DNA from: Strigamia acuminata
Taxonomy: Eukaryota > Arthropoda > Chilopoda > Geophilomorpha > Linotaeniidae
Direction of reading: 5' to 3'
Length of the DNA: 64,000 nucleotides
Assembly (NCBI GenBank): GCA_949358305.1
Contig: OX442319.1
Coordinates: forward strand, 1,860,001 to 1,924,000
In this document: positions 3,001 to 44,634 of the stretch, one piece after another
Layout of the letters: every line of letters begins with the position of its first letter
How positions within the stretch are numbered: position 1 is the stretch's first letter
Translations under genes and position numbers: made by a program
The notes under the pieces: model-generated
Databases searched by the model: none
What the model was told of the DNA's origin: nothing
What the model saw: the letters and a program-made list of their open reading frames with translations, nothing else

Positions 3001-3363
3001 CGTCTGCATCGCTAGCATCGTCGCCATCATTTGCTTCATCATCTCTTGTACTTGATCCGCACTAAATCCGCCGTTCGTCATCGCTTGTACCGGTGGGTTT
3101 TCTTCTATCTCCGGATCGTTGTCTTCTACTTTCTCTTCGTCTTTCTCTTCTTCTTCTTCGTCGTCTTCTTCGTCTACGATCCCTAGTTCCGTAGCTACCG
3201 CTGCTCGTAATGCGGTCAACATTTTGCATTTTATCCTCGGCGATGCAATGTTCCGCTCTGCTAATAGTGGTTTCAGATCTTTTACTCTTAACATCTCCCA
3301 CTCAACTCCGCTTGGAAATTCTCCACGCTCGATCTTCTCTACGACTGCTTTGATCTCGGCCAT
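1..3363 (-). CDS. gag-pol polyprotein of gypsy-type retrotransposon, C-terminus missing
   Basis: The ATG at 3363 follows an in-frame TAG, and the frame stays open to base 1. The gag part is helical and has a run of acidic residues (about 3120-3180). Three zinc knuckles of CX2CX4HX4C type lie at about 2240-2420. The protease motif is GIDTQSAV (about 2085-2110), with Gln where DTG/DSG is usual. Reverse transcriptase shows DFRSLN, FDLASGYYQIE, MPFGL, YMDD (about 800) and FLGL. RNase H begins at about 380 with HTDAS and continues with TELELMAVVWA and VVTDCEA. The protein makes the particle and copies the element RNA. The terminal integrase part lies off the window. Confidence 0.85.
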   Translation of the reverse strand, partial: MAEIKAVVEKIERGEFPSGVEWEMLRVKDLKPLLAERNIASPRIKCKMLTALRAAVATELGIVDEEDDEEEEEKDEEKVEDNDPEIEENPPVQAMTNGGFSADQVQEMMKQMMATMLAMQTKPEAPKEPKEVKNAPKLPRFSGDQNELRTTTQWLADVHEYAKEYKWTNATKVTTAAAALDGPAKVWHENSGTTIRKFDAWEAELKKNFPDQRLTYDEKERLIRAPQKNDETAETYLRRKWATCEKLGMTIGDAQEYLLDGLKLKTATAPMYFLQYQHITEIVRTMRSVEARTKVAIVETKVKTSTAKPTGNAMIKCYKCGEKGHRKEDCPNELKCFKCHESGHLSNACPNGTKCFNCSGFGHMANTCPEPKKERKQPSKDKLDVKTKKIYKIEAEEMQPEFETMMWVDGKKCSAGIDTQSAVCLISKTFAKRTKIEEPDYEFVIEGFNQDASRYRGRTRCDVESANVKLADVEFYVVDDARMPTEVWIGKPFLKHPTITMQSDGGYVTFRPREGMQDEAGITRIKPKITAAKPRALVIDENKVVPAHSISLVTVRAKNQSDGLFYVENERAVTDRLEVPEGLIEVKNERAIMPIINDGPEEVRVTRGRKLGHVEITEEEPSLHQVQVKKVATTEASPRMRITADEINLGKSVTPEETEIVLTMINDEFRDCFATSLEKVGCFPDLKMEIEVTTTRPTNLRRYQYSAAQQKEIDKMVAELEGAGFVTRSKSPFNSPIVMVRKKTGEWRICIDFRSLNEITVKEHFPCPRMDELLDGTHEWRVFLVFDLASGYYQIELTAGAQEKTAFSTMNGKYQFVRMPFGLINAPFVFNRVMELAFGHLPYEVLRRYMDDLLSGAKTNAELIEKMRKILIEVRRSKLTLKLSKCHFLCEEVQFLGLRLTKDGLRPGFEKTSAIKNFAKPKDVRGVRSFLGLCGYFRRFIAGYATKTRALTKLTRKNETFVWTTECEAAFQGLIGELIAEPVLKIYDNTRPCEVHTDASQDGIGAVLMQRGEGNDLHPIIYASRTTTECEKRYHSTELELMAVVWAVLKFRMYLYGSEFTVVTDCEAVRYGLKKRELTPRIGRWVLALSEYNFKAIHRPGLLMGHVDALSRNAEPASGEE

Positions 3364-3552
3364 TTCTTCTTCGTAATTCGGCTAACCCTCGTAACACGTG
3401 TTTATCCCAGCGAATCGTCTCTTGATTCCCGAACCGTCCACGCGCTATTTGCTACCCGAATTTCGCTTCTGCCGCCGAAAACAATCGCCTTCTACTTTCG
3501 TCTACTTTCGTCTACTTTATCGTCGCATCGAATTCGTCTATCCCACTTCTGA

Positions 3553-4855: not shown

Positions 4856-7800
4856 CGGATTGGCCACCGGTATGCTGAATGCCGACAACCAGTGGATCCT
4901 GCCGCTGCAGCCGATTTTCGCGGACGTGGTCGTGGCCGAGGACGCGGTTTTAATCGAGGTTTCGGACGTGCGTGCAATCAAGGTGCAAATTTGGCCACAC
5001 AAGAGTCCAATGCAGTTAGTAGGGAACTGACTGACCTCGATTACGTGGTCGATTATGCGATGTCAACAAATAAATACAATTTTGGGGTTACAAACCCGGA
5101 CTGGAATTCGAATATTTGGTTCATGGATTCGGGAGCCTCATCTCATATGGCAAACAATGCTGAGTGTTTCAATTATCTGAACATGAACCGGGGTAAAGAT
5201 ATTTTTTTAGCGGACGGACGCAAGGTGCATTCAACTGGGCATGGATCAGTATTGTTGACCACATTGCTGGGCAACCAGAAGAGGTTGATACGTTTGGACA
5301 ACGTAAATTTAGTACCTTCTTTAAAGACTAACCTGTTATCAGTTGGGAGAATAATTGATCTAGGATTTCAAGTGTGTTTTGGCGATGGAATTTGCGAAGT
5401 TAAAACCTCAGATGGGATTAAAGTGTTTCAAGCACAAAAAGTTAATGGTTTATTTCAAGTCAACAGCGTCTCGAATGAAATGAGTGGACCACAGAGGATG
5501 AACATAGGAATATCATCATTGGCCCACCCTGATCAATTGCAGAGGTCTTCTGGGCGTTTATCAATAGTTACTTGGCATAGACGGATGGCTCATTTGGGCT
5601 ATCGCTCCTTAAAAGAACTTTGGAGTAGAGATATGGTAAAAGGGATGCATTTGAAGGATGCCAAGATACCCGAAATATGCGATAAATGCGCATTAGCTAA
5701 AAAGATCAGGGCTCCTTTTAGACCCACAAACAATATTACTGCAACTAAACCATTTGAGATGCTGCACGTTGACTTGTGCGGACCCTTTCGTACTGCATCA
5801 ACATTAGGGAGCAGATATATATTTACGATTGTTGATGACTTTTCAAGAGCGATTTTCACGAGATTTCTGAAGGAGAAATCACAAACTGTAGGTGAATTTG
5901 AAAATTTTTTGAAAATGTTTGAAAATAAGTTTGACGGCAAACTCAAGCGGTTGCGAAGCGACAACGGCACTGAGTTCTTAAATGAGAGATTTAAAACTTT
6001 ATTGGCGAAACGCGGAGTCCACCATCAGTTGACCGTTCCATGGACCCCCCAACAAAATGGCGTCGCGGAAAGAGCCAACCGGAAGTTGCTGGACGCGGCG
6101 AGGACTCTTTTGTTGGACTCGGGATTACCGACGCATTTCTGGCAAGACGCAGTTGAAACGGCAGGTTATGCGTGCAATAGATCTAAAATGCGGAGATTTG
6201 ACGTCGAGACACCAATCGAACGGTTGACAGGGCATAAGCCAGATGTAAGCAATATGAGGATCTTCGGATGCGTGGCTTACACGTGGATACTCAAACAAAA
6301 CCGTTATAAGTTGGAACCAACAGCCCGAAAAGCCATTTTCCTGGGATATCCGTTCCAAGTAGCAGGTTGGAAGTTTTATGATCCAGTTAAAGAGAAATAT
6401 TTTGTTGCGAGGGACGTCAAATTTAATGAGGAACTGAGGGGATCGACGTTGCTCACAACAATTGACCAGCCGCAATTGCAGGTTGATCAAAATTTGGATC
6501 AAGAGACACCACATGGGACAAGGCAAGTTCCAGTAGTTTATGACGAGGTTCCGACCCAACCAGAGTATAGGATGCCAGCGAGGACGGGTCAAATCGGACC
6601 GGAGCGACGTTATCCATTAAGGGCGAGAAGGCCCCCGGACCGATATGTTCCGTATGACCCGGGGCAAAGATTAAGACAAAGACGAGGTGCACAGACAAGC
6701 CCAGATCCAGACGTTTCAAATTTAATAAATGAAGCAAAAATTGCTGATGAGAAAGGCATTTTGATACCAAAGACTTATAAGCAAGCCATTGAGTCAGACC
6801 AATCAACCCAGTGGCAACGGGCCATGGAGAGGGAGATTCAATCTCATGCACAACAACACACCTGGGAGGTAGTAGACCGACCCAAGGACGCCAAAGTGGT
6901 CGGATCACGTTGGATTTATTCAGTGAAAACCAACCAACAAGGACAAGTAACACGCTATAAAGCGCGTTTGGTGGCCCAGGGTTATAACATTTATAAGGGT
7001 GTTGATTATGATGAGTCTTTCTCCCCAGTGGTCAGACTTGCAACAATACGACTTTTGATGGCATTGGCGGTGATGTATCATTTTCGGGTCAAGCATCATG
7101 ACGTCGAGACTGCTTACCTTCATGCCAAGCTGGGCCAGACTGTTTATATGGAGTTACCAAAAGGAATGGAAGTTCTTGGTGACAAGGTTTGCCTATTGCA
7201 AAAGGCAATATATGGGTTGCCACAGGCAGGCCGTGCCTGGCATAAGACATTGGAAGCAAAACTCCTGAAAGTTGGTTTCTTTAAGCATCCCACTGAACAA
7301 TGCGTTTATATTTACAGACATGGAAAGTCAACCATAATTATGGCAACTTATGTGGACGATTTACTGACCTTGGATAACAATAGTGAACTATTGGATCAAT
7401 TAATGGCCAGAATACGACGTCGCATCAAGGTGATAGATTTGGGCGAGATAAAGAGCTTATTAGGCATAAGAATAAACCAAGATATGAAGAAAAATCAGAT
7501 CACCTTGGATCAATCCAAATATATCCTGGAGCTGGCAATTAAGTTTGGTTTGGACCAAGCGAGGACTGTGAAAGTTCCAATGGAAGTGTCACAAAAATTG
7601 GATGCTCCGGATTACCCCTTGGGACCATCAGCTGGCGACAAGCCTTATAGAGAATTGATTGGCGCGTTACTTTACCTTGCTCAGGGCACGCGCCCTGATA
7701 TCGCGTTTCCGGTGTCTTTTCTCTCACAGTGGCTGAATGACCCCAAGGAAGCTCACTGGATTGCTGCGAAGAGGATTCTGCGCTACTTGATTGGGACTGT

Positions 7801-8320
7801 GAATTATCGTTTGAGGTACAAGAGTTCCAGTCAAGACTTAATTGGGTACACGGATTCGTCTTGGAATGCTTGCAATGCCGACGCAAAATCATTTGCGGGA
7901 TTCATCACTACATTGAATGGAACTGCGGTTACATGGCAAGCAAAGAAGCAGAGTTTAATCAGCTTATCATCTTGTGAAGCTGAGTTCTCGGGCCTGGTGG
8001 AGGTTGCCAAAGAAATAAAGTGGGTCAAAAACGTCCTCGAGGATTTGAAGTTGACGGTTGAGAGAAGACCCATAGTAATTTACTGTGACAACCAGCCGGC
8101 CATTGACTTAACCAAGAATCCGTGTTACCACGCAAGAACAAAACATTTCAATAGGAGAGTTGCTTTTATTAGGCAAGATGTAAATGAGGGAATTTACAAC
8201 GTGATTTATTTGCCAACTGACCGGATGCTCGCAGACATGATGACCAAGGCTGTTTCTGAAACAAAGTTAAAGCAAGCTTGTGAAGCAGTTGGATTAGTTA
8301 ATGTTTTGGATGAAAACTAA
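4856..8320 (+). CDS. copia pol polyprotein (protease, integrase, RT, RNase H)
   Basis: Open from the gag TGA to the TAA at 8318-8320. An RG-rich linker comes first. Landmarks by position: protease FMDSGASSH (about 5123), the GAG-pre-integrase zinc finger (HRRMAHLGY...CDKCALAK, 5574-5703), integrase Asp in HVDLCGPF (about 5764), Asp in RSDNGTEF (about 5955), Glu in NGVAERANR (about 6066), RT domain start (KARLVAQGY, about 6960), RT catalytic YVDD (about 7350), and RNase H YTDSSWNA (about 7847) and SLSSCEAEF. All catalytic motifs appear intact. As gag-pol is one frame, its expression depends on passing the TGA. The length is usual for copia pol. Confidence 0.9.
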   Translation, partial: RIGHRYAECRQPVDPAAAADFRGRGRGRGRGFNRGFGRACNQGANLATQESNAVSRELTDLDYVVDYAMSTNKYNFGVTNPDWNSNIWFMDSGASSHMANNAECFNYLNMNRGKDIFLADGRKVHSTGHGSVLLTTLLGNQKRLIRLDNVNLVPSLKTNLLSVGRIIDLGFQVCFGDGICEVKTSDGIKVFQAQKVNGLFQVNSVSNEMSGPQRMNIGISSLAHPDQLQRSSGRLSIVTWHRRMAHLGYRSLKELWSRDMVKGMHLKDAKIPEICDKCALAKKIRAPFRPTNNITATKPFEMLHVDLCGPFRTASTLGSRYIFTIVDDFSRAIFTRFLKEKSQTVGEFENFLKMFENKFDGKLKRLRSDNGTEFLNERFKTLLAKRGVHHQLTVPWTPQQNGVAERANRKLLDAARTLLLDSGLPTHFWQDAVETAGYACNRSKMRRFDVETPIERLTGHKPDVSNMRIFGCVAYTWILKQNRYKLEPTARKAIFLGYPFQVAGWKFYDPVKEKYFVARDVKFNEELRGSTLLTTIDQPQLQVDQNLDQETPHGTRQVPVVYDEVPTQPEYRMPARTGQIGPERRYPLRARRPPDRYVPYDPGQRLRQRRGAQTSPDPDVSNLINEAKIADEKGILIPKTYKQAIESDQSTQWQRAMEREIQSHAQQHTWEVVDRPKDAKVVGSRWIYSVKTNQQGQVTRYKARLVAQGYNIYKGVDYDESFSPVVRLATIRLLMALAVMYHFRVKHHDVETAYLHAKLGQTVYMELPKGMEVLGDKVCLLQKAIYGLPQAGRAWHKTLEAKLLKVGFFKHPTEQCVYIYRHGKSTIIMATYVDDLLTLDNNSELLDQLMARIRRRIKVIDLGEIKSLLGIRINQDMKKNQITLDQSKYILELAIKFGLDQARTVKVPMEVSQKLDAPDYPLGPSAGDKPYRELIGALLYLAQGTRPDIAFPVSFLSQWLNDPKEAHWIAAKRILRYLIGTVNYRLRYKSSSQDLIGYTDSSWNACNADAKSFAGFITTLNGTAVTWQAKKQSLISLSSCEAEFSGLVEVAKEIKWVKNVLEDLKLTVERRPIVIYCDNQPAIDLTKNPCYHARTKHFNRRVAFIRQDVNEGIYNVIYLPTDRMLADMMTKAVSETKLKQACEAVGLVNVLDEN

Positions 8321-9240: not shown

Positions 9241-9996
9241 TGGATTGACCACTGGGAAGGAATTTTCTATTTTCTATTTGGAAATTCAAAGTTTTAATTT
9301 TAGAAATTTTCTATTACTGTACATTCTATTTTTGAATGTATATTTGTGAGAATTCGATTTTGAATTTACATTTGTTAGAATTCAAATTTTGAATGTATAT
9401 TTGTAAGAATTCAAATTCTGAATGTATATTTGTAAGAATTCAAATTCTGAATGTATATTTGTAAGAATTCAAATTCTGAATGTATATTTGTCCGAATTCG
9501 AATTTAGAATTACATTCAATTTTGTGAATTTCTTTAGTGGCGCCTAAAATTGACCGCAAGAACCTACGGGAAGTGAACATCAGCGCGGGCACTTTACTTA
9601 AATTCGACGTGAACGTCGAGGGCGAGCCACCACCGACCATCATCTGGTTATTCGGCGGCCAAACACTAAAGGAATCCGATCACGTGATGACCGCGAACGT
9701 GGAATACAACACCAAACTGATCTCGGCGACTAACAGCAGCGGCAAAGACACCGCCGTCGTCAAAGTGATTGTCCAGGACAAATCCCTCGCACCAGAAGGT
9801 CTCTTGAAGTGCCTGGCATCCACAAAGAGGGCTGCAAATTGAAATGGAAGAAACCCAAAGACGACGGGGGAACTCCGATCGAGTGCTACAAATCTAAAAA
9901 AAAGATGGGCCCGAAGACGGGAGTGTGGGTTCCGGTCCGACTCCGAGCTCTAGGATTTAGCGGGCCACTTCTCAAAACTAAATGGTTGATTCCAAA
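9198..9996 (+). pseudogene. fragment of a twitchin/projectin-type giant muscle kinase gene (FN3 tail, Ig, FN3 start)
   Basis: Two pieces match the FN3-Ig-FN3 layout of twitchin/projectin. At 9201-9261 the plus strand reads the end of an FN3 domain (DPEVEVTGLTTGKEF). From 9538, after a good acceptor (TTTCTTTAG), it reads an I-set Ig domain (APKIDRKNLREVNI to AVVKVIVQD, about 9540-9785) and then the start of an FN3 domain. The frame changes at about 9800, after which the neighbouring frame reads HKEGCKLKWKKPKDDGG and KTGVWVPV to about 9950. The sequence decays after that. Introns seem to be kept, so this is a genomic duplicate and not a processed copy. The functional parent gene is not in the window. 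Confidence 0.75.
9346..9510. repeat. 29-bp minisatellite inside the twitchin-like fragment
   Basis: About five to six copies of AGAATTCAAATTCTGAATGTATATTTGTA, given here as AGAATTCAAATTCTG plus AATGTATATTTGTA, with divergent end copies. It sits in what would be the intron between the FN3 and Ig pieces. Each unit holds the self-complementary GAATTC and AAATTT-like steps. Confidence 0.85.
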
Positions 9997-11762: not shown

Positions 11763-13738
11763 TCAAAGTTTCATTTGATAGAATGCCGCAAGACGATCAA
11801 TCTCATCTTCACTCTGCTCACTACACGTAACAAGATGACTAAAAAGCTTCTTCAATCCTAAAACAAGTAATAACAAAATTAAGAAATAAATAAATGAGAA
11901 AAACAAATAAAATGTAAAAATTACTTTTCTTATCTGCGTCAGAAAAGAACATGGCTAGAATATTAAAGCGCTTGACGCTCGTCAAACTTAGCAAAGGAAC
12001 GTAAACATCTTCCCCATCGACTATATAAAACTGTTCCATTATGTTGAGGAAATCCGAAACGACTTCGGCTTCGAGAAAATCGTCAAAAATCGACGCGTAC
12101 TGGTCGCACGGAATTTGCTGAATACGAAAAAGCGAAAATAAGTCGTTTTGATTAATTCATCGTTACAATAATTCACTTTTAGGTAGAAATATAATTTGTC
12201 TTTGTATTTTTTCAGCATTTTCCAGCTGGTTTGGAACTGATAGAGGTTCTGGGGCGACTGCGGGACAACGATTTCTTCGGATCGCAGCGTTTCCTCGTCG
12301 GATTTCAGCTCCAAATTGACAATTTGCTCCCTTTTCTCGACCATTTGCTGCTCCGGCATTTTGATTTTAGTCACGGTTTCTTGAATTTTCATCCTTTTCA
12401 TCGGTTTCTGCCAAATGTAATCAATTATTTTCGTGTTTTTAATGCGTTTTAGTTGGTTCCGGGACTCACTTTAGACCTGAGATGCGGTGGTTTAGAGATG
12501 GGTTTAATTAAGCCGGCTTTCTCCGAGCTGATTTCCTCGATCGTGATTTTCTTTGACGCCGACGCCTCGCCTTTCAATTTTGTTTCGTCGCATGAGGTAG
12601 TTTTCGTTTGAGTTAATTCACTCTTTTTCTCGGCTTCAATCGCTTCAATCTGTAATTACATTTTTTAAAAAAATTAAAATGATAAATTAGTTGATTTTTT
12701 TTTTTAAGTGATCAATTTTACTTTTTTGATTTTCATCAATTCGTCGTAAGCTTGTTTATTGCCCGCTTCAAGCTCTAGCACCTTCCTGAAGTCTTGTTTG
12801 GCCAACTCCAATTTATGCAACGCCAATCGCGCACTGCCGCGACGTTGGTACGCTTTTACGTAATTTTTATCGATATTTATGGCTAAATCACAGTCTTGTT
12901 CCGCGGCACCGTACCTACAAAAAAATCGTTTTAATGCAAAAATGATAAATTTCCCAATTTTTTTTCTGTTACATTTCTTTTTTCAACAGTGCGAGCGCTC
13001 TGTTGGCGGGTAAAAAAGCGTTCGTAGGGTCACTCAGCATGCCATTGGTATAGCATTCAATCGCGTGGTCGATTTGACCCAAACGGAAGTAATCATTTCC
13101 CTAAAATAATTACAAAAAATAATTAAAAATCACGTTATTTTTACATCAAGTTAATGCCGTCAACCTTTTCTTTATCTTGTAAAGCTTCTTCTTTCCTTCG
13201 AATAGTTTGGATGTCCTCTTCTTCCTCCTCGCTCACGTCATCTTCGCTGTCCTTTTTCTCACTCTTGTTGTCCAGAGCTTCGCACGCTTTATCCTTGAAA
13301 CAAATTGAATTTGTAAGTAAAGCTTTGATCAAGTTTTAGGGTTAAGTTTACTGCGTCGAAGTTGTCCCATGCTTTATAGTCGTAGGATGAAATACGTTTC
13401 GGTTTGTTTTCCTCTAGTTTTATCACTTGGTCGTTGTCTTTGGTCTTGTTTTTTTTGTTCTTGCTCACGACTTCGATTATTGATTTGCCTCCACGGCTGC
13501 CTCTGACGGCGGGCAACTAATTAAATAAAAATTTGTTTATGCATATTAATTATTTATTTAGTTTTAATTATATTTGTTTGTTTGTAAGTTTTACAGTTTG
13601 ATCCAAAGGTCCGATTTGACCTATTTCCTTCTCCTTTTTTGTCATGTCGTCCTTCCATTGGCCTAAATCACGCAGGAAAGTTTGTAATTCGTCGGCGTTG
13701 TGTCGAATTTGAGCTTGTGCTTGCACTAAGGGATCCAT
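11763..13738 (-). CDS. RPAP3: RPAP3 homologue (RNA polymerase II-associated protein 3; Drosophila spag)
   Basis: Nine exons: 13738-13595, 13516-13352, 13293-13165, 13100-12973, 12914-12722, 12649-12470, 12407-12177, 12117-11925 and 11857-11763, all with GT-AG borders and consistent phase, giving 485 aa. The N-terminus (AQIRHNADELQTFLRDLGQW) and SSYDYKAWDNFD are typical of RPAP3. Exons 3-5 encode a tetratricopeptide repeat array (GNDYFRLGQIDHAIECY onward). The last three exons encode the RPAP3 C-terminal domain (YQFQTSWKML, then LTSVKRFNILAMFF). RPAP3 is the HSP90/HSP70-binding arm of the R2TP complex, which assembles RNA polymerases, snoRNPs and PIKK kinases. An upstream in-frame ATG at 13756 would add six residues. 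It has a single TPR array, fitting invertebrate spag more than the two-array human protein. Confidence 0.93.
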
Positions 13739-14269
13739 CTTGGCATTTGTATTCATTATTGTAATCCAATGATGATGATGATGGCAGAGGTGTTACTAAA
13801 ACCTGGGAAATCCTGAAGTAAACTTTCTCTCTTTCTTATTATACTTTACATTAGTAATACATATACTTAGGCTTAAGGTAAAATTACATTTTTTTCTTTA
13901 TTACGTTAGTTTCATTTTTTTTATTCATATCATTTTACTTCTCGTACCGTATATTTATTTATTATTGTTATTGATCACGTTTTCCAAATACCTAGACTTC
14001 AATTCAGTCCAGACTAAAGTAAGTGATCGTTTTCAAGAAATGAAATAAAGCAATTAAAACTTATGTACCGGTATTTATAATATTAAATGTCACAGTGTAA
14101 TATTTATTACATTAGTATTCCGATGCAGAACAATTGAACAATTGATCGATTGCACGTGCCAAGGAAAAGCCAAGAGAATATTTTTGATTCAGCAAAATTC
14201 AAAAGATTCAGATGCTAAACAGAAATTATTTTTCGGGTCAATCTTCTTAATTATTTTATTCAGTGTTTT

Positions 14270-14657
14270 CAGCTTGAATAGCTGCGAGAATTTCTGCGGG
14301 ATCTCGACCTGGAACCCAAGCGTGTTCACAGATTAGAGGAATACATTCCTCTAATCTGTGAGCGTGTTTCTCTCGGTGTGTCTGGTGTTTTGCTGCGCGA
14401 GCGCTAACTCCTGGAACGGCTCCTGGAACACTTTCCCAAAGGTGACCTAGAACGGGATCTTGAAATGGATTTCTTGCGAGAACAACTTCTCCAGGCTGAT
14501 CTCAAACGGAGCCTGCATCCTCCTCATCGTGATGATCGTCGAATTCTACAAATGCAAAACCTTTTTTGAGGTTAACTTTGCAAATTCTCCGCCATCCTTT
14601 CAGATGTCGCGCTCGTTTATGACGTCATCCAAACCGCCAATATAAACACGAAATGCA
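14270..14657 (-). pseudogene. SR splicing factor pseudogene (SRSF4/5/6, B52 type)
   Basis: Read on the minus strand from about 14657, it gives an RRM with RNP2 (FRVYIGGLDD) followed by INERDI, then a TGA stop and a frame change. The RNP1 motif (KGFAFVEFDD) lies at about 14532-14558. After another stop and frame change comes an arginine/serine-rich tail (SRSRSRSPL, SRSRSRS, then RSRSKTPDTPR, and LGSRSRSRRNSRS at about 14280-14320). No introns are seen between RRM and RS parts, so it may be a processed copy. Several stops and frame changes show that it is dead. A perfect palindrome lies within the RS part. Orthology within the SR family is uncertain. Confidence 0.7.
14326..14361. repeat. perfect palindrome, 17-bp arms, 2-base loop
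   Basis: TCACAGATTAGAGGAAT, then AC, then its exact reverse complement. It lies inside the RS-coding part of the SR pseudogene. The tiny loop and perfect arms suggest a template-switch event, or a strong hairpin in RNA. Confidence 0.9.
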
Positions 14658-15349
14658 ACGAAAGTGATGTTGCTTCAGATTTCGAAGAATCTTCAATGCG
14701 AATGAGTGATGTCGATGTTTTTACTGTGCTTATCGTGGTTTTAAGAACGTCATGAGAAAGTGATTTTGGTCCATAATAATTTCTTACCGTTTCAACTGCA
14801 TCCTACATTAAAAAGTTTAGAAATGATCGTTTAGACCACGGGCCTTTTAATGAATTTATTTATTGTTCATCTGGTTTGTTTTGAAACATCAATTAAATGT
14901 GCGACTGTTTTTCATAAGATGTTATTAAATCAAAGTTGTGGCTGTGCTCACTACGCGTGTTCTGTCACTTTCATGAAAGTCTGAATGAGGCTGGTCGGCA
15001 TCGATTTAAGCAAATAAACTTTTGATAAAAAATATTGTTGCCAATCAATTTGCAAATCTTGTAATCTCATTTGCTTATTTGTAAAATATGAGTAAATGTC
15101 TACAGTAGAAAGAAAGAAAGAAAAAAATCTTTATTGTTTTAATTAACAAACATACATAATTTTTATTTATCTATAAAATTAAATTAAAAGTTTACAAAGG
15201 AAAAAATAAAATTCCATTCATTATATTAAATCTCAATTCCAAATACAGTCGTTTATAAACTAAACAATATTGAAAAAAAAATGAATCAAATGCATGAAAA
15301 CATCTAAAGACACATCCAAATGGCACTCGACAATTAACTAAATTCTAGT

Positions 15350-18300
15350 CTATTTCTGCGGCTTAGAGATATACCCGATGCTAACATAATAATTGAGAAG
15401 CGTAGTAATCATATTGCGGTCCACCTTTGGACACCGAATAACAGTGCCCTCCAGAGCGGTCAACGTGTTGTTGCTATCATAATCTGCAGTCCTCTTGGAC
15501 TGCTCCTTGTAATCATCTCGGTACTTGAGAGCAATGTACGGCAACAAAGGCAGCAAAGCGTTATCCTTAGACCGGACTTGTTCTTCCAAAGCATCCACCC
15601 ATTGAGAGGACGAAACTTGTTTGATGGGATATCCGTAATCTTTCAGATAACCGAGCATCTGCACCGTAGTTACATCCGTGCCCGGTAACGGTGCCAGGTG
15701 AAAAGCTTTGCCTAGACTCTGGGAAAGTCTCGTCACGTGGACGATGGCCCTGCTGACGTAATCGACGGGGATGAGCCACATCATGTCGTCCATGTCCGGA
15801 TAACACCCGACTTCGATGCAGCCCTTCACTAATCTCGACATGTAGTCGTTGGTGTTGGTGGCCCCCGTTCTCGCGTGCCCTATCACATAACCGGGACGTA
15901 AAATAGTGACCGGAAGTCCGCGGGACTTGGCGATCCAGACGAGCATTTCGCCGACCCACTTAGCTCGGGTGTATCCCATGTGGAAGAAACTGTTGGCGTT
16001 GTTCAAATTGTCCATCTCGTAGATGATTTTCTTGGTCACTGACGCGAGCACTACGACCGACGAGACGTAGTGGACCGGTTTCACCTTAAATAGACACGCC
16101 AGTCGAAGAATCTCTTGGGTACCCAATACCGCGCCGGATTTTAGTATCGAGTAGGGTTTGACGAAATTGACCGGCGCCCCGCAGTGATAAATGACGTCGG
16201 CTCGTTGACCCAGTTGGAAAAATTGGGTTCTCGATAAGCCCAATAAAGGTTTCTCGAGGTCTCCGAGGATAGGATGGATCCGAAGGGCGAACGAAGAGTT
16301 CCAAACTCCATATTTTTCCAAGTTTTCTTGGATTCTTCGGGAGCCGTCTTTGACGCTTTTTGCCCGGACGAGGCAATGGGCATGCGCCTTGGTCTGCTTC
16401 AATAGGTCGGCGAGGAGAAATGCTCCCAGAAAACCCGTTGCGCCGGTTATAAACAAATCTTTTGGGTTCCAAAGGGTCTCCACGTCCAGATACGCTCTTG
16501 CGGGATAAATGTCTTCGTCGAGGACGGCTTCTTCCTCGGGGACGAATGCCTCGCTCGAGATGTCTTGTCCGCTCAGAGCCGATTCGACTATCGGGCAAAG
16601 TCCCGCGATGGTGGGGTTTTCAAATAGATATTTAGCGGGCAGGTTCACTTTGAACGCTTCGGACACTTTGAGCATGAGTTGAATCGCTCGGAGAGAGTTT
16701 CCACCGACTTCGTAGAAGTTGTCCTCGATGCCGATGTTGCGGATTTGCAAAATTTCTTGCCAAAGATTCTGCATTTTCAGTTCGGAGTCGTTTCTTGCGG
16801 CCACCGTGTGACCGTTCGTCTGGGAAACGTCCGTGTCCGGCAATGGAAGCAATTTTCTGTCCACTTTGCCATTTGCTGTTTGCGGCATTTTGTTCAGAAT
16901 CATAAAAACCGACGGCACCATGTGACCAGGAAGAATGTCCAGCAAAAATTTGCGCATTTCTTGCGTGCTCGCCGATTTGTCTTTGTGGAAAACCACATAG
17001 GCCACCAATTTCTTGTCGCCTGCCGAAGGCTGAAACGCCGTGACCACAACCTCTTTCAAGCTCGGATACCGGGCCACGGCGTTCTCAATCTCTCCCAGCT
17101 CCACCCGGATACCCCTGATTTTCACCTGATGGTCAATTCTTCCCAAGATGTCCAAAGTTCCATCTGGACGGTACCGCACTAAATCCCCGGTTTTGTACAT
17201 CTTCTTCAGCCATGGATTCGATTTGCTGTCGTAAGTCCAGGCCAACTCATTGGGAAATTCATTGGCTTCCGTGAAAAGTCCATCCTTGTAAGGGTTGTCG
17301 ATGAAGCGTTCGCTAGTCAAGTCCGGTCTTTGCATGTATCCTCGAGATAAGCCGGAAGTGACGATATACAGTTCCCCCGGGATCCCAACGGGTACCGGTT
17401 GCATTTCAGCATCCAAAATATGAAATTGAGAATTTTCCAACGGTTTACCGATCGGCGGGTTTCGTCTGTAGTCTTTTTCCACCGGAAATATCACCACAGT
17501 TCCGCATTCCGTGCACCCATAGTGGATGAGGATCTCCTGCACTTTGGTCTGCTCGAAGATTTGCTGCACGAGTTGCTTGGTAACGGTCTCCCCAAACATT
17601 GCGACGCTGTAAACGGACGCGGGCACGGATTTGGTGCGGACGAGTTCGACCATTACCGATGGCACAGCGCCGATGTAATTCACCTGGTTGGCCGACGGGA
17701 TGATGGACGCTTCGAAAGCGTTTTTGGACACCACAATCACCTGTCCAAAGACCAACGGAAAGAACAACTCCAAAATACCGGGTACGTAGGATAAGGTCGT
17801 GGCGGCCAATTGGTACTTCAATTCGGGGCGTTTGTAGAGATCAGCACCTGCCAAGATGTTGGTTACAAAGTGACAATGCTCGACCATAACTCCTTTGGGT
17901 TTCCCGGTCGAACCGGAAGTGTATTGCACGTAAGCTATGTTGCTCGATTTCACTTGAACCTTCAAGTTGTCGGTAGACTTGTCCCGGTAGAGGCTTTTGT
18001 CGTCCAGAAGGACGATTTTAACGTTGTTGTCACTTGGTAAGCAATTCTTGACGCTCGTTTGACTGATGACGACCTTTGCTTGCGTGTTCTCCAACATATA
18101 AGCGATTCTATCTTTCGGGTAATTGGGGTCGATGAAGACGAATCCGCCGCCCGCTTTGAGAACGGCTACTATCGCAGCCACGTTGTCGATGCCCCTCTCC
18201 ATGCAAATTGCGACGAGAATCTCGGGTCCGATGCCCAATTCTTGCAGGTAGGACGCGATTTGGTTGGATTTTTTGTTGAAGTCCGAATAAGACATTTCTT

Positions 18301-19801
18301 CACGATCGTGGATGATGGCAACCTGGTTCGGGGTTTTTTCCACTTGCTGTTCGATCATGCGATGCACGACTTGGTCGATGTCGAATTTGCCGAAATCGTT
18401 GTTCCAATTGCGTAACTGAACCAGCTCTTTTTGCGTAAGTAGGTGGTACTTGGAAATCGGCTGGTCTGGAGACTTGAGAATGTTGCTTAACAACATTTTG
18501 AAATGTCCGACGACTCTCTCGATCGTTTCCATCAAAAACAGGTCGGGGTTGTACTCGAAATAGCCGGTCAGACCGTCGTCGGTGCTCGTCAGGTTCAAAT
18601 TCAAGTCGTATTTCGCCGCGGTCACGTTCAAGTTGATCCTGGAGAAACGAATTCCATTCAGCGGTCTCAACACGTAATCGTCGTCAAACGCGAACATGAC
18701 GTTGCATTCTTGCTGCGCCGGATTGCTTTCGCGCAACATCTTTTCCACGGGCACGTCGGCGAACTCTTCGACCGTCGAAAGCGAATTTCTCAGTTGTTTG
18801 ATCAGTTGGAGAAAACACGGATTCTCGACCAAATTCGCGCGCAAAACGACCGTGTTTGAAAAACATCCAATCAGCTTCTGCAATCCGGGTAGAAGGTGAC
18901 TACTCATGCGCGTGCCGATGCCGAAATCCACTTGACCCGTGTATCTCTGCAAGAGAACCGCAAAAGTGGCCAAAAGGACGTTGCCGACCGCCACGCCGTG
19001 AGTTTTAGCGAACGATTCGAGTTGGTTTTTCATTTCGTTGTCCAAATTGATGTAATGTCGCGAGCCCTTGTAACTCGGGGTCGGCGGGAGTGGGAAATCG
19101 GTCGGCAGTTGAACGGCGATGGACGCGGAATCCATGTACGTCTTCCAATCGTCGAATTTCTTGACGAGTTTCTCTCGCGGATATTGCTTGCGTTGCCACG
19201 TGGCGAACTCCGAGTACTGCATGCCCGGTGACGCGAGCGACGGCGTTTCGCCGTAGATCTCGCCCTCGTACATCGCGAACACGTTGCGTAAAAAAAGTCT
19301 CATGCACGATTCGTCGCAAATGGCTCGGTGGGTCGTGAAGAGCACGGCGGCCGAATTCTGCTGGATCTTGAAGATGCTCACGCGGACCAGGGGGCCATTG
19401 GTGATGTCTATTGGTCGTTCCGCGTCTTGCGACAGAGTTTGCAGCAGAGTTAAGTCGTCCGGTGGGTTCTTGAGCATGTTGACCATGTTGATTGACACGT
19501 CCATCTGCGGTTGCACGAGTTGGATGGGTTTTTGGCCGTGGACGCCGGTGAAGAACGTGCGCAGAGCTTCGTGGGAATTGATGGTGTCCTGAACACATTT
19601 TTCGAGAATTTTAGTGTCCAAAGGGCCGTCGATTGTGAGTGCTCGCGACACCAGGTGGACTGGGTGGTCGGGTGGTAAATGACCAATCGTCAGCTCTTGC
19701 TCTTGATTGAAGGACAGAGGAACTCGTTCGCCTTCTTTCACGTCCCGGATGTTGGGAGTCGAACCCCAAGCGCGTTTTGCATCCCACGACAAACTCCCCA
19801 T
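15350..19801 (-). CDS. NRPS-like C-A-T-R enzyme (condensation, adenylation, carrier, thioester reductase), 1483 aa
   Basis: One uninterrupted coding exon. The condensation fold is at about residues 25-445: FNQEQEL, NSHEALRTFF (76-84), the active-site region THRAICDE (157-164), YSEFATWQ (196-203) and IGCFSNT (311-317). The HHxxxDG motif has become HRxxxDE. Adenylation is at about 475-985: YTSGSTGKPKG (627-637), YGCTE (761-765), TGDL (871-874), HQVKIRG, and NGK with Lys979. The carrier motif GGNSL has Ser1036 as pantetheine site. The reductase has GATGFLG (1120-1126) for NAD(P)H and YTRAK (1277-1281) as YxxxK. The usual reaction is adenylation and thioester loading of an acid, then reductive release as aldehyde or alcohol. 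The position of the substrate-binding Asp235 of GrsA is Val673. The ATG at 19801 has a plausible context (AAAAGATGG). Product unknown; candidate for horizontal transfer. Base composition is richer in G+C than the flanks. Confidence 0.95.
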   Translation of the reverse strand: MGSLSWDAKRAWGSTPNIRDVKEGERVPLSFNQEQELTIGHLPPDHPVHLVSRALTIDGPLDTKILEKCVQDTINSHEALRTFFTGVHGQKPIQLVQPQMDVSINMVNMLKNPPDDLTLLQTLSQDAERPIDITNGPLVRVSIFKIQQNSAAVLFTTHRAICDESCMRLFLRNVFAMYEGEIYGETPSLASPGMQYSEFATWQRKQYPREKLVKKFDDWKTYMDSASIAVQLPTDFPLPPTPSYKGSRHYINLDNEMKNQLESFAKTHGVAVGNVLLATFAVLLQRYTGQVDFGIGTRMSSHLLPGLQKLIGCFSNTVVLRANLVENPCFLQLIKQLRNSLSTVEEFADVPVEKMLRESNPAQQECNVMFAFDDDYVLRPLNGIRFSRINLNVTAAKYDLNLNLTSTDDGLTGYFEYNPDLFLMETIERVVGHFKMLLSNILKSPDQPISKYHLLTQKELVQLRNWNNDFGKFDIDQVVHRMIEQQVEKTPNQVAIIHDREEMSYSDFNKKSNQIASYLQELGIGPEILVAICMERGIDNVAAIVAVLKAGGGFVFIDPNYPKDRIAYMLENTQAKVVISQTSVKNCLPSDNNVKIVLLDDKSLYRDKSTDNLKVQVKSSNIAYVQYTSGSTGKPKGVMVEHCHFVTNILAGADLYKRPELKYQLAATTLSYVPGILELFFPLVFGQVIVVSKNAFEASIIPSANQVNYIGAVPSVMVELVRTKSVPASVYSVAMFGETVTKQLVQQIFEQTKVQEILIHYGCTECGTVVIFPVEKDYRRNPPIGKPLENSQFHILDAEMQPVPVGIPGELYIVTSGLSRGYMQRPDLTSERFIDNPYKDGLFTEANEFPNELAWTYDSKSNPWLKKMYKTGDLVRYRPDGTLDILGRIDHQVKIRGIRVELGEIENAVARYPSLKEVVVTAFQPSAGDKKLVAYVVFHKDKSASTQEMRKFLLDILPGHMVPSVFMILNKMPQTANGKVDRKLLPLPDTDVSQTNGHTVAARNDSELKMQNLWQEILQIRNIGIEDNFYEVGGNSLRAIQLMLKVSEAFKVNLPAKYLFENPTIAGLCPIVESALSGQDISSEAFVPEEEAVLDEDIYPARAYLDVETLWNPKDLFITGATGFLGAFLLADLLKQTKAHAHCLVRAKSVKDGSRRIQENLEKYGVWNSSFALRIHPILGDLEKPLLGLSRTQFFQLGQRADVIYHCGAPVNFVKPYSILKSGAVLGTQEILRLACLFKVKPVHYVSSVVVLASVTKKIIYEMDNLNNANSFFHMGYTRAKWVGEMLVWIAKSRGLPVTILRPGYVIGHARTGATNTNDYMSRLVKGCIEVGCYPDMDDMMWLIPVDYVSRAIVHVTRLSQSLGKAFHLAPLPGTDVTTVQMLGYLKDYGYPIKQVSSSQWVDALEEQVRSKDNALLPLLPYIALKYRDDYKEQSKRTADYDSNNTLTALEGTVIRCPKVDRNMITTLLNYYVSIGYISKPQK

Positions 19802-19824
19802 CTTTTCTGTCGGATTCGATCAAA

Positions 19825-21135
19825 CTGAAAAAAAAAGAAAGAAAAAGGATAAATTTAAATTAAATAATCCGAGGCGTCGTGAAACCATGATTTTACACTT
19901 TTTTATGTCAATCAAAACGAAAAAAGCTCGGTTAATGAGATGAGTTAATCACTTAATATGCCGTTTGTTTTCTTAAGCGTGTCGAATGAAAATGAGAAAA
20001 TAATAAAAACAATTTAGAACGTGAAATTGAAGAAAGCTTCAAGGCCCGAGTTTTTACAAAAGACTTGCCAACTGCTCAGGTGAGACCACCCATTTGTTAC
20101 AAATGGGTGGTCAGAGGAGAAAGCAAAGTAAGGTTTTCAGGTAATTCAAGGAGAAAATAAATGGCACGATTTAGGTTTAGTTATACGACGTAAATTTTTA
20201 ACGAGTTATTTTAATCTCTATATTATTGTTGTTTTTTTAGTTGTTGAAATTTAAGTATATTTGCCTTTACCAAGGTAATGGTTGATTGCTTATTTTTTTT
20301 TAAATATTTTGATGGCCTAGTTATTTATAAACTTGAATAAATTGCGGAACTTGTTGTAACGTTGCTGCTACAGCTTTAAGTTTAATTACATCTATTGTGC
20401 TTAAAGGTCCATGAAAGACCTTGTTAGTGAAAAATGGCATTAAAACCTTGACTGACTTTCACTAAGTGTTTCTTATGAATAAATAGCGGTACTGCTTTTA
20501 TATAAAAAAAATAAATCGATTTTGGAAAGTAAATGTGAAAGGATAATTTTTTTATTTAAATGTTGACAAGCAACCCCCATTTTTTAATCGATATTTTTCA
20601 TCTAATTTCGATTCAAATCTTTTTCAGAATTTTATAATATTTTTATAATTTTATAAATTAAAAATTCTTCAATCCAAACTAAATTGACGGGTTAATAAAT
20701 TTTGAATATAGTCAAAATTAACTAAAATTTATAGTTAATAAAATAAAATGTGTCGATAAGCTTCATTTTGAAATTTGAAAAATTAGCATTTCTTCTAAAT
20801 AAACCAAATTCTTCGATAAAATTGTCCTCAAAATATAACTTAAGTTTCAAAATTAAAAAACTTCGCCTAAAATGATATTTTCTTCACTGCAATACATCCC
20901 ATTTAGTTGTTCCTTTTCCAAACTAATTTGTACAACACATTCATTTATTTTAGATATTTACTGAAAGAAAAACATCTAAATTAAGATTCCGTAATTTAAA
21001 TTTTTTTTAAATTCCTCAAAAATTATAACAATACAAAATAAAAGATGAAAAATTATTATAAAATCTTTAGAAAATATATGAAAACTGCTTACCTTTTTAT
21101 AAGTAATACCCAACGTGTGAAGGCTGGTGAAGAAA
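19825..21135 (-). promoter_or_regulatory. probable 5' UTR intron and first non-coding exon of the NRPS-like gene
   Basis: Upstream of the start codon the minus strand has a pyrimidine tract ending TTTTTTTTTCAG, directly before TTTGATCGAATCC and the ATG 23 bases later. A matching donor, ATAAAAAG followed by GTAAGC, lies at 21093/21092. A first exon from about 21135 to 21093 would lie about 30 bases below a TATA box. This predicts a 1.27-kb intron in the 5' UTR. No transcript data support it here. Confidence 0.55.
20084..20112. repeat. perfect palindrome, 14-bp arms, 1-base loop
   Basis: GACCACCCATTTGT, then T, then the exact reverse complement. It lies in the predicted 5' UTR intron of the NRPS-like gene. 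It is similar in form, not sequence, to the palindrome at 14326. Confidence 0.9.
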
Positions 21136-21158
21136 TGGCCGAACCAAAACTTTTCCTT

Positions 21159-21167
21159 CTTATATAG
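21159..21167 (-). promoter_or_regulatory. TATA box for the NRPS-like gene
   Basis: The minus strand reads CTATATAAG, a strong TATA element, about 30 bases above a predicted start site near 21133 and 65 bases above the predicted first-exon donor. Other genes in the window show no clear TATA box, so this would mark a regulated promoter. Confidence 0.5.
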
Positions 21168-24100
21168 TGTTTAATTCACAGGAAGAATGTAGCACGTGAT
21201 CTTTTTCGTGTCAAGCCTTAGATGAAATTGAAATTGTAGTTAAAAAGAATTTTGCTTGTTTCTCGAGGAAGGTTTTTTATGGTACTTACCAATCAAGGTT
21301 CTACTACGCATGACACCTTACACAGAAGCAATAAAATATAAAAATTGAAGGAGTCCATAACCCAATTCAGAACTGTAAAAAAAGAAAACAATTATCACTC
21401 GATATACAAACTTTGTCAAGCATTGAAACTAAAAATTAAACATTTCGTAATAAGTCACACTTTGTATTGATTTTTATGCAAAGTAAAGTAGCGTTTCTAA
21501 ATTTAAATGTGAAAAAGGGAACTATTTTTCTTTTGATTTCAGTTTAAGAAGGAAGTCGTTTTTGCAACCCAGTTGAAATTTCAAAATGCAAAAAGTAAGA
21601 GAAATACTTGTGAAATATTTAAAATGCTTAATCTCGATTTATTTTTAAAAATGGGTCACGAAAGTCGTCACAGACGGTCAAACTTGGATTTCAAGGAGAA
21701 GTTTTAAAACGACTTTATTTCACAAAAAAATAAAAACAAATACCGGTAGTTGTTTTGAAAAAAAAAGAGTTATTATTAGAAGTTTGTCTTTATTTATTTT
21801 TTATTCTTTTAATTAATGTGAATTGTTCGTATAAAAAAAATTTTATCCAATGTATAATAATAATTTTTTAGATTCGTGACATTTTTACCTTGAATTCTAA
21901 ATCTAGTTTACTGTATGGAAATGAAGAAATGACGAATATAATGATACATTTAATGGAGGATTCATGAGATTGTGCATGACTAACCTGATTGTTAAATACC
22001 AGAGTTGAAATACGACATTGAGCAAGTATACCGGTACACGAAAATTTGAAAATTATGTAATTTATGAACCCTGGTATGTTGTGCAAGGTTCACGAATGTT
22101 TTTGACTGAAAGATAATTAGGATAAAATTTCATCAAATTTTAGATCTTTACAAAATCTCAAAAAAATTAAAACATAACTCAAGGTTAGTAAAAAAATTAG
22201 CCAAAAATTAAAAAGTTTTTTATAAGTTACGTTACCGTAAGTTACCTTTAAACAAACCTCAAATTTGAATTTCCGTAGCCATTTTTATCCCATTCCAAAT
22301 TGTCATCTTCTGCTTCCGCTCGTGACGTACCTAAATGAGTGTCATAATTCCTTTAATTAATATTCAAAATTGTGAATCAATGTGATTGGTTGGTGTTAAA
22401 TTTGTAGAAAATTATCAAGTCGGTAATTAATTTGTAGAAATTTATAAATTTTGAGATAAATTGATTGAAGATTCATGAATTAGATAACAAAACTCGTAGA
22501 AAGTACCGTAATATCAATAACAAATTTGTTGGTCAGATCAGAGATGATTTTTAGTTTGATTTATAATGGAGACAATTTTTAATTTAATAGCCTAATCAGA
22601 AATTCAGATTGGAATTGGAGGCAATTTTTTAATTTTCCAAAGATTTGATGATCAATTTATTTGCGAAAATGATTAACAATTTTTTAGAAACGTATCAATT
22701 TAGTGGACGATTTTTAGAAACGTATCAATTTAGCAATTCAAATACAGAGCATTATCGACTTCGTAATTATTGCTGGAATAACTAACAGGGCTATTTCCAC
22801 GAAATAATCTTATCACACCCATAGTGTATTTCTATACTGTTCAAAAATGATTAGTTTGTCCTGGCTTATACTCGTGCTACTGTACTCATCAATAAACATG
22901 AGGTATTAATGATTTCACGCAGTATATATCTGCAGGGACTGCTTGTTTCAAGAAACCTGACATATTGCTCGATTAATTGTGACAGGATAGAAAGACCGTT
23001 TCGGTAATTTAGTACTTCGTAATTAGTACTCCGTATCAAACTTGAATATAATTAGAAATTTAAATATTTTATGCAGACGACTGGAAGTGGTTACAGATAA
23101 AATAATATCGCAGTAAGACAAGTCGGACATTGACACTAACGACAAGTTCAATGTTATTGATTAACAAAATTGATAATAACGCGACAACTTTATAAACTAT
23201 TTGCAGAAAAAAAAACATTCTGATGGAGATAAAGAGTTAATTCCAAAGATTTACTGAACTTGTAAAAAAAAAAATATTACACAACCTGTAGCATGGCAGT
23301 GCCATTTAAAGAAAATTCGTGGTCTATTTCCCGCCACCAAACATCTGGTTGAAAAAGGATTCAAAGGGAGCACAGTAGGCACAGTAGTAATAACTGCCGC
23401 AACGTAGAATTACGTGGAAAGGGGATTGTTTGTTGTGTTTTTAGTGCCATCTCTCGATGAGAATTGCTTTCTATTGTAGCTCATTGTTCACACACATTTT
23501 ACAAACAGTAGTAATTTTTTTTGCATTAAAATCGGAGGAAGTAGGGTCAGATGTGCCTACTACAAGTATAAACACCACAGCACCAACGTCCTTAACCCTA
23601 TCAGGGTTAATGTTATCAGTCCCGTATTAACCCCTGTGGAGGCCCTTATTAGGCCGTCGAAATCTTGGAGGCTCCCATCCTAATCTCGATCTCGGTCTCC
23701 CCCATTGAAATCTCACAAATTAGTCTATTTCCTTACATGTTATACGAATTAAATTTGTACAAAAATAAAATTACAAATAAATTACAAATAACTGAAATAA
23801 TTTTGGAAAATAAAAAACAAGATGAAAGTCCATTCGAACAGTGCTGGAAAAAAAAATTGGAAAATTTGTAAAATTTATTTGTATTTTTTCCTTCTGGTAT
23901 TATTAATATTAGAGAATCAGAATCAGTGAGTTAAGTAGTCGTCTGATGAGTCAGGTCAGGGCCACGGCCCTTTTATAAAGTCAGGGCCCAAAATCTTGAT
24001 AGCACTTCCTTCTGTGCATACAAAAGCATCAACTAATGGCTATTTTTTAATTTTAAATTTTTTTAAAATTCTTTTAGAAATTGTAACTTGTTTTTTTTTT

Positions 24101-42472: not shown

Positions 42473-44634
42473 AGCGAATAGCCTTTATTTTGTTCAGTGG
42501 ATACTTGATTCTCACTTGCTACACAGCATACATTCTCATATGCAGCAATTCACCCATTTCGAAGAGGAAAACAGATAAATTGTGGTCCTTGGCAGGTAAA
42601 CACGCTTATTTTACAAAATGCACTCAAATGATTGATGTTTACATTTTTAAAAATAATAATAAAAAGAAATAAATAATTAAATAAATAAAAATAGGTACAG
42701 GAGATGACGAATGGAATCCATGGGGAGAAGATTTGGAACGAGAAAAGAAGCTTAAAATATCCAATGCTGATATCCATAAAATAAAATGGTGGAGTAATAA
42801 AACGTTGGATTACGGAAGAATTTTGTCCAGAAATAATTCTTCGGAGATAAATGTGGAAATATGGGCAAAATCTGCTATAGGTAATTGCATTCTTAATATT
42901 TTAAAATTGTTTGATTGGAATCGTTTTTTTTTTTCAGGTTTGTACTTGTGGGAGCACATTTTAGGCGGAAAAGTAGAGAAGAAGATGAACGGCATTTGGA
43001 GTTATGGGTTCAAGAAAGTTGATAATATTAAATTCAAGTAAATTAAATTTGCAATAAAACGTGTGAAAAATGTATATCGTATATATTTTTTTTTCTTTTT
43101 CTTTTTTAAGGTTTCGCACAGGACCAGGAGTAATTCCCAGCAAAGTTCCAGCATCCGTCCATTACCTTGTTCTAACGTTGAACGGACGAGATGCCGACAA
43201 AATTTCTTTCGCTAAAATGTGGCTAGATTTTCTGCCGCAACTTCCAAATCTGCGTGGTGTCGCTGTGTTGCTGTTGGGCGACGAGCAATGTCAAAATGAC
43301 TGGATTCTTCCATACATGTCTGTAAATAAGGGGATAGTGAACGTCACTTTTCTTGTGTATGATAGTCCGTTAGTAGATCACGATCATTTTTTCCAATGGC
43401 CACTAGGTGTTGCTACGTAAGTTGTTTATTTAGGGATACATCGATTACGAGATATTTTCTGAACGTTAAAATTATCTGATATGGAAATTTTTAAATAGTA
43501 AAAAGTAATCCATATTTAAAATCCACATTTATCGCAATTGTAAATGTATTTTGGCTGAATTTCAATCAAATTTGCCAAATTTTTGATACATTTCGACAAA
43601 ATTTGCCAAATTGCTGATGAATTTCAACGAAATTTGCCAAAATTTTGATGAATTTCAATAAAATTTGTAACATTTTGGATGAATTTCAACAAAATTTGTA
43701 AAATACCTGTGAAATTTTATTTCTAGGTATCGCAATTTTCCAAAAGTAGAGGTAAAACATTTGGAATTGGAGGAACCGAGACCTTTTGTTTGTAACTTCG
43801 TGGGAACTGTGTACAAAAATTCGAGTCGCTCGAAAATGGTCGAAGGATTGAAGGAGAGAGAATTGCACAAGCAATGCGTCATCAAAACCCGTCAAGAGTA
43901 TAATACTTACTTTATTGTGTCTTAGCATATGTGATGATAAACACTTGAAAAGATGATTCAAATTGTAAAACTGCATTACAGAGTTTTTAGACAAAAACCC
44001 AATTTTTTAATTTCGAAAATGCATATTTTATTAAATTAAAAAAATGCATTTTTTTAAAACAAAATTTTCAGTTTTTAGTAGAAAAATGCATTTTTTAGAA
44101 GGAAAAACTGCATTATTGGCATATGTATTTAGACACTTAACAGCATACCGGTTATAATATAATTGAAAAAGATGAATTGCAATTAATGCTCAATTTTCTT
44201 TACCCAGTTGGATTCCGAACGAAACCAAAGAATCATTCGAAGCCTACTATTCGGCTCTTCGACTGAGCGATCTAACACTGAGTCCCGTTGGCCAAAACAC
44301 CGAATGCTATCGCTTGTTCGAAGCGTTGTCCCTCGGCTCCATTCCGGTTGTGGAGGACGTGATGACGTCCGGCAATTGCGGCAGCCAGGAATACTACCGC
44401 GGCCACATGACCGTTCCGGCTGCGCCGCTCCGACTCCTTAAACTATACGACGCGCCGGTCATCTATTTCTCCAATCTCGAGGAGTTGTGGATGATTCTGG
44501 AAAAGGAGTCGCTCATCTCGCCCGCGGAAAAAATCAAGCGACGGAAAAGTGCCGTGGACTGGTACGAAGAGTTCAAGATAAAAATGCGAGATTTGTTCGT
44601 GGTTACGCTGAAACGCAAATTATTCGGTTCGTAG
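42457..44634 (+). CDS. RXYLT1: ribitol-5-phosphate xylosyltransferase 1 (RXYLT1/TMEM5)
   Basis: Six exons: 42457-42595, 42695-42880, 42938-43037, 43111-43416, 43727-43897 and 44208-44634, total 442 aa against 443 in human. A short cytosolic N-terminus and one signal-anchor TM (about residues 6-28) make it a type II Golgi protein. The luminal part starts with DDEWNPWGED and ends in the catalytic GT region SDLTLSPVGQNTECYRLFEA with LGSIPVVEDVMTSGNCG, characteristic of the family. The enzyme adds xylose to ribitol phosphate on the O-mannosyl glycan of alpha-dystroglycan. All six exons share phase and good splice sites. A uORF overlaps the start. The gene lies about 1 kb after the LRP11-like gene on the same strand, with no sign of co-transcription. 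Confidence 0.93.

Follow-up and report, generated by a model that had tools for sequence, protein, structure and literature searches.

A single-coding-exon NRPS-like C-A-T-R gene of apparent cyanobacterial-type kinship in a centipede chromosome, with a condensation domain predicted to be inactive

A stretch of 64,000 nucleotides from the centipede Strigamia acuminata (contig OX442319.1, positions 1,860,001 to 1,924,000; hereafter, the window) carries one open frame that encodes condensation (C), adenylation (A), carrier (T) and thioester-reductase (R) domains in that order. We favor, with slightly better than even confidence, the interpretation that this NRPS-like gene is an old horizontal acquisition which was reshaped into a stand-alone A-T-R reductase and which would convert a carboxylic acid of a kind other than the usual alpha-amino acids into an aldehyde or alcohol. 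The kind of gene is ordinary for animals with horizontal gene transfer (HGT); the degree of its remodelling is unusual. The coordinates of the features are collected in Table 1.

The frame starts with ATG and runs uninterrupted through 1483 codons, with neither an internal stop nor a coding intron. All Pfam matches were above cut-off: Condensation at residues 26-462 (1.2e-78), AMP-binding at 484-822 (1.5e-69), AMP-binding_C at 904-979, PP-binding at 1011-1069 and NAD_binding_4 at 1118-1353 (2e-65). A frame of this length with this set of domains is not due to chance, and the description of a 1483-codon C-A-T-R frame free of coding introns in the initial annotation was borne out. We then considered the NCBIfam scores, taken from the 25 matching families listed of 106. 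The protein scored 357 bits against a cut-off of 317 for TIGR01733 (amino-acid adenylation) and 334 bits against 213 for TIGR01746 (thioester reductase). It scored 535 bits against a cut-off of 2500 for the AusA equivalog (NF047350), 569 against 1030 for the Lys2-type aminoadipate reductase equivalog (TIGR03443) and 154 against 1300 for NF041592, and its score for the MxcG equivalog was far under the cut-off. Since the domain order is above cut-off and the equivalog scores are far below, we assigned the protein to NRPS C-A-T-R proteins outside the MxcG, AusA and Lys2 equivalogs. Among the features of an NRPS termination module, the four domains in order, the carrier serine, the NADPH loop and the Ser/Thr-Tyr-Lys residues are present; the catalytic HHxxxDG of the C domain and Asp235 of the A domain are absent.

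Table 1. Features of the NRPS-like gene and its 3' neighbor (positions within the window)
Feature	Position	Strand	Basis
NRPS-like C-A-T-R gene, one coding exon, 1483 aa	15350..19801	-	ORF, Pfam and NCBIfam
Condensation domain (C), predicted inactive	18416..19726	-	HRAICDE at residues 158-164; 27/39 conserved positions kept
Adenylation domain (A)	16847..18352	-	A3, A8 and A10 (Lys979) intact; pocket code VPLGAFHTVK, Val673 at the D235 site
Peptidyl carrier domain (T)	16577..16789	-	GGNS, Ser1036 as predicted phosphopantetheine site; 7/7 conserved positions kept
NADPH thioester-reductase domain (R)	15353..16534	-	TGATGFLG loop from 1119; Ser1248, Tyr1277, Lys1281; 73/76 conserved positions kept
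Probable 5' UTR intron (GTAAGC ... TTTTTTTTTCAG)	19825..21092	-	Ends 23 nt 5' of ATG; by eye, then matrix ranking
Probable TATA-like element (CTATATAAG, 21159-21167) and first non-coding exon	21093..21167	-	By eye
Possible second upstream non-coding exon	21290-21371	-	Acceptor 21372 rank 2; donor 21289 second in a near-tie
Two AATAAA signals 3' of the stop	15130..15167	-	By eye
RPAP3-like host gene with short introns; 3' neighbor on the same strand	11763..13756	-	Ends by eye

HHxxxDG is the catalytic motif of C domains. In the centipede protein Arg159 replaces the second His of this motif, and the first His and the Asp remain. We compared this motif, by alignment column, with 269 C domains sampled from the proteins of both search lists described below. 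The second-His column held His in 250 of them, Ala or Ser in 19 and Arg in none. The ending ICDE was found in the query and in seven of the 269, which are exactly its seven nearest relatives; the shorter CDE occurred in eight, and the eighth reads HHILCDE. A non-canonical C subtype was also seen in the sample, with Pro at the first His in 17 of the 269 domains and Ala or Ser at the second in 19. When the positions conserved in at least 90% of the relatives were examined, the query was found to keep 27 of 39 and to have lost 12, the third lowest retention of 114, and two sampled C domains retain fewer. In addition, the C7 region of the query has a 6-residue deletion, and the C1 Trp and C6 His, which are found in all seven relatives, are changed. 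Because the domain has lost its catalytic His and other signature residues, no condensation is expected, and we predict that it is inactive, although one inactive-looking motif is no proof.

Given these losses, we considered what else the C domain might do. It may still work, if its catalysis is altered or its acceptor unusual, and couple the enzyme's own substrate to an acyl or aminoacyl group supplied by another protein or by CoA, after which a reduced amide would be released. The domain is near full length by its Pfam match, its fold is recognizable in the structural model, it keeps two residues of the motif, and the second His is likewise missing from the 19 sampled domains mentioned above; nevertheless, the Arg at this position, the C7 deletion, the changed C1 Trp and C6 His, the 12 lost positions and the lack of a donor module in the window all argue against catalysis, and we regard this explanation as unlikely. 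The glycopeptide X domain (HRxxxDD) recruits a P450. The C domain could similarly serve, without catalysis of its own, as a platform on which a partner docks, within a multi-protein route. It has HR for HH as X domains do and was retained despite its lost catalytic motif, but HRAICDE differs from HRxxxDD and no partner gene was noticed on a general reading of the window. We think a docking role in such a route rather improbable. A working C domain and a docking one are nevertheless the chief competitors of the reading that we favor.

The remaining domains were examined in the same way. Asp235 of A domains anchors the alpha-amino group of the amino acid. In the sampled A domains the D235 column is Asp in 338 of 342, Val in 2 and Asn in 2; the query has Val673 at this anchor, and its pocket code is VPLGAFHTVK. 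The initial annotation had noted neither this Val nor the altered motif of the C domain. The codes of the two sampled domains with V235, VDWVVSLADK and VDAVTSLADK, are presumably beta-alanine codes. A beta-alanine code was ruled out for the query, which has Pro, not Asp, after V235. The A domain keeps 61 of 67 conserved positions, the 11th lowest of 120; F672Y and D673V, both in the A4 motif, are among its six losses. Every one of the seven conserved positions of the T domain is kept, and the retention of the R domain (73 of 76, or 0.961) compares with a mean of 0.931 in the others. The decay thus appears to be selective, with the C and A domains losing conserved positions and the T and R domains at or above the mean of the relatives. 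Together, the intact frame and the conserved T and R domains suggest that the gene is in use. A model of the C-A-T part, of medium quality (mean pLDDT 66.7), resembles solved C-A modules, with Txo2 as the best match.

The nearest relatives were sought with the whole protein (4593 found, best 120 listed) and with the R domain (3200 found, best 120 listed), with 7990 candidates scored in each search. Among the best 120 of 4593, the top of the whole-protein list was formed by five proteins of 2104-2123 aa with 41-43% identity over 98-99%. Among the best 120 of 3200, the same five and two more headed the R list with 50-52% identity, as compared with at most 47% for the next rows. All seven are A-T-C-A-T-R proteins, and the two that have a source name are from Pantanalinema rosaneae CENA516 and Microcoleus sp. 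Pol7_A1. No eukaryotic protein was present among the named rows of the two lists (120 and 120), which were all bacterial; many rows had no source name, and the searched database does contain vertebrate proteins. We also scanned 84,980 species genomes with two peptide patterns and obtained 241 R relatives, of which 80 were retained. By title, 75 of these 80 are cyanobacteria. The best of the 241, from Leptolyngbyaceae cyanobacterium C42_A2020_001 (L001), had 50% identity and the next 46%. Its gene (L001:4841-11221) encodes, by reading, an A-T-C-A-T-R protein of 2126 aa. An isochorismatase-like frame, also by reading, lies about 0.5 kb downstream on the opposite strand, and reading the ORFs of 14 kb around the gene revealed no obvious partner enzyme. 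When genome and viral contigs were scanned with exact peptide patterns for close relatives, 3 stretches matched in one scan and 1 in another, none encoding a relative.

The seven cyanobacterial-type synthetases and the L001 protein have a second half that is collinear with the C-A-T-R of the query, and the seven share with it the C motif ending ICDE. However, the seven carry an A-T loading module and an intact HH[IM]ICDE, both of which the query lacks; with five of the relatives as queries, no A-T loading module or further NRPS piece was found in the window. Their pocket code is DLFNNALTYK, which we take to be an alanine code, in 14 of 14 A domains, as opposed to VPLGAFHTVK in the query. AusA-type A-T-C-A-T-R proteins are dipeptide aldehyde or pyrazinone synthetases with reductive release. 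The query has the C-A-T-R order and the predicted reductive release of the AusA type; it differs in having no loading module and in scoring far below the cut-off of NF047350.

Four trees were compared. In the R tree (70 rows: the query and 69 representatives of 163), the query and the seven relatives were joined at 100/98. A C-A-T-R tree built by a quick method (39 rows: the query and the first 38 of 41 clusters from 92 segments) joined them at an SH-aLRT of 99, and these two trees share the R data. In the tree of the C domain alone (61 rows; first 60 of 127 clusters of 269 domains), the query stood on a branch of 2.74 and was not grouped with the seven. In the tree of the A domain alone (61 rows; first 60 of 121 clusters of 342 domains), it stood on a branch of 1.54 within a 23-row starred set that contains the A domains of the seven, with no finer resolution. 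A constraint uniting the query with the seven was not rejected for the C domain (AU p 0.33) or for the second A domain (AU p 0.40). The R and C-A-T-R trees therefore point to kinship with the cyanobacterial A-T-C-A-T-R clade, and the A and C domains alone do not resolve it.

Horizontal acquisition, as proposed initially, is favored by the cyanobacterial-type kin and by the lists in which no named row is eukaryotic. The identity of 41-43% to the nearest kin, the host-like codon use and the probable 5' UTR intron make a recent transfer unlikely. An older transfer common to other animals may have occurred.

We also asked whether the gene belongs to an animal NRPS-like family, inherited vertically or shared since ancient times, of which the searched data contain no other member. 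Such a family is made conceivable by the many database rows listed without a source name and by published animal cases. So et al. (2022; PMC9151784) describe a bacterial NRPS that reached the ancestor of centipedes, called as HGT with syntenic support, and 32 of 65 myriapod HGT genes without introns. NRPSs are scattered over several animal phyla, having been reported in 7 of 19 screened. In the literature on the subject, to which Suring et al. (PMC10531068) belong, animal NRPSs include the nemamide synthetases of nematodes, a springtail ACVS, bdelloid clusters (described in PMC11258130), a schistosome NRPS and Ebony. In light of these reports, the surprise initially attached to an intronless C-A-T-R gene in an animal was only partly justified. 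The NRPS of the centipede ancestor (PMC9151784) is, as the present gene appears to be, a bacterial NRPS gene in an arthropod lineage. The other animal NRPSs likewise have NRPS machinery but are described as multi-module, beta-lactam or Ebony-like systems. A limited literature search found no published C-A-T-R animal gene with an inactive-looking C domain, and we do not claim that none is in print. The named rows listed are all bacterial, though eukaryotic proteins are in the database, and the nearest kin are of the cyanobacterial type with a common C motif; an animal family of this kind is thus, in our judgment, a poor prospect.

The gene form was examined upstream of the ATG. The 1,268-nt candidate 5' UTR intron, first spotted by eye, is bounded by the best donor (21092, rank 1/354) and the best acceptor (19824, rank 1/322) when a generic metazoan matrix is applied to 15350-22500 (-). 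The five introns of the RPAP3-like gene scored poorly on the same matrix (donors -3.6 to -1.6; acceptors -5.5 to 3.5), indicating that the matrix fits this host badly. The start codon has A at -3 and G at +4. Since the 5' UTR intron has apparently been retained, a retrocopy of a spliced gene is unlikely.

The G+C content in 1-kb bins was 0.49-0.51 over 16001-20000 and 0.41 in bin 15001-16000, as against 0.26-0.39 in the adjoining bins 12001-15000 and 20001-23000. The elevation over the flanks noted in the initial annotation is therefore real. However, host exons are likewise G+C-rich, so that the contrast is mostly one between coding and non-coding DNA and is a weak sign of foreign origin. By codon position, the G+C content was 0.527/0.354/0.643 in the NRPS-like gene and 0.518/0.376/0.509 in the host exons, for which 14 exon pieces (3,147 nt) served as the reference. 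The third-position value of 0.643 is near the top of the range of the host-exon pieces (0.37-0.65) but inside it. The RSCU of the gene correlated with that of the host exons at r 0.56 (3,147 nt only), with the pogo-type transposase at 0.65 and with the copia element at -0.13. The CpG ratio was 1.27 in the gene and 1.33 in the host exons.

The chromosomal setting was then considered. The gene at 11763..13756 (-), which we take to be RPAP3-like by family name, was read with five introns of 58-78 nt. On the other side, about 23-25 kb away, RXYLT1 N and C domains were found at 43067-44631 (E 4e-39 and 3e-50). As judged from its sequence, the host is an animal, since the window carries both RXYLT1 domains, a weak partial MANEC match, and gypsy-, copia- and pogo-type elements. 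A spliced animal neighbor and a eukaryotic gene form together indicate that the NRPS-like gene is integrated in the host. Repeats common to the gene flanks and the rest of the window, which would have pointed to a single chromosome, were limited to one 38-nt match (E 0.007) and two small palindromes.

These results bear on two further explanations. A decaying relic, a non-functional gene whose frame has so far stayed open, would account for the long branches in the C and A trees; but 1483 codons without a stop, T and R domains with conserved positions at or above the mean of their bacterial relatives and a host-like gene form make it very unlikely. An assembly chimera or contamination is scarcely credible in view of the 5' UTR intron and polyadenylation signals, the host-like codon use and CpG ratio, and the position of the gene between a spliced RPAP3-like gene and RXYLT1.

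We return to the interpretation that we favor, an old acquisition reshaped into a reductase. Its nearest known source would be a cyanobacterial-type two-module A-T-C-A-T-R synthetase in which both A pockets have the same code. The animal version would correspond to the second half only, C-A-T-R, in which the C domain kept its fold and is expected to carry out no condensation. We infer that Ser1036 receives its phosphopantetheine arm from the transferase of the host. With its ATP chemistry retained, the A domain would then adenylate a carboxylic acid, though not one of the ordinary alpha-amino acids, and pass it to the T domain, and the R domain would use NADPH to release an aldehyde, which might be reduced further to an alcohol. 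A-T-R chemistry is that of the Lys2/AASDH-type aminoadipate reductase and of carboxylic acid reductases. The query keeps the A-T-R parts of these enzymes intact but differs from them in retaining a C domain and in having NRPS terminal modules as its nearest kin. Overall, the enzyme would act in the manner of Lys2 or a carboxylic acid reductase, preceded by a silent C domain. The initial annotation had suggested a small aldehyde, an alcohol or a cyclic imine as the product. Because there is no loading module in the window and the C domain is without its catalytic His, a cyclic imine derived from a dipeptide is unlikely, and the reduction of one acid to an aldehyde or alcohol is the better fit.

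NRPS genes are known in animals, few of them with a function. Here, the replacement of His by Arg in the C domain and of Asp by Val in the A domain gives a clear prediction, namely an aldehyde made by an animal from an unusual acid. With the nearest source lineage indicated by the R tree, and by the C-A-T-R tree, into which the same R data enter, and with the carrier and reductase intact, the gene offers a testable case of reuse. We tentatively go one step further, with less than even confidence: the animal may have taken the second half of a cyanobacterial synthetase, silenced the C domain and rebuilt the pocket so that it no longer favors alpha-amino acids, to gain a single-gene reductase, driven by ATP and NADPH, for a signal, pheromone or defence aldehyde or alcohol, in which the dead C domain would be a scaffold or docking surface.

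Several other features of the window were recorded. Between the NRPS-like and RPAP3-like genes, at 14290-14650 (-), there is an SR splicing-factor-like fragment (an RRM end and an RS-rich stretch, by eye) with stops, which is probably a processed pseudogene. A lone Ig I-set piece at 9528-9839 (+), followed by a fibronectin-like stretch, is twitchin-like by eye and may be a gene fragment. A partial MANEC domain at 31960 is weak (24.6 against a cut-off of 25.5). Mobile elements comprise a gypsy-type retrotransposon at 1-3381 (-), with a long open frame, zinc knuckles, reverse transcriptase and RNase H, a copia-type retrotransposon at 4856-8320 (+), with an open frame of 1154 aa, and a pogo/Tigger-type transposase frame at 49077-50591 (-), with CENP-B_N, HTH_Tnp_Tc5 and DDE_1 domains. 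Finally, a tandem array at 39733-40090 consists of 15.6 copies of a 23-bp unit with 99% match, and this unit resembles that of the 29-bp array at 9323-9510.
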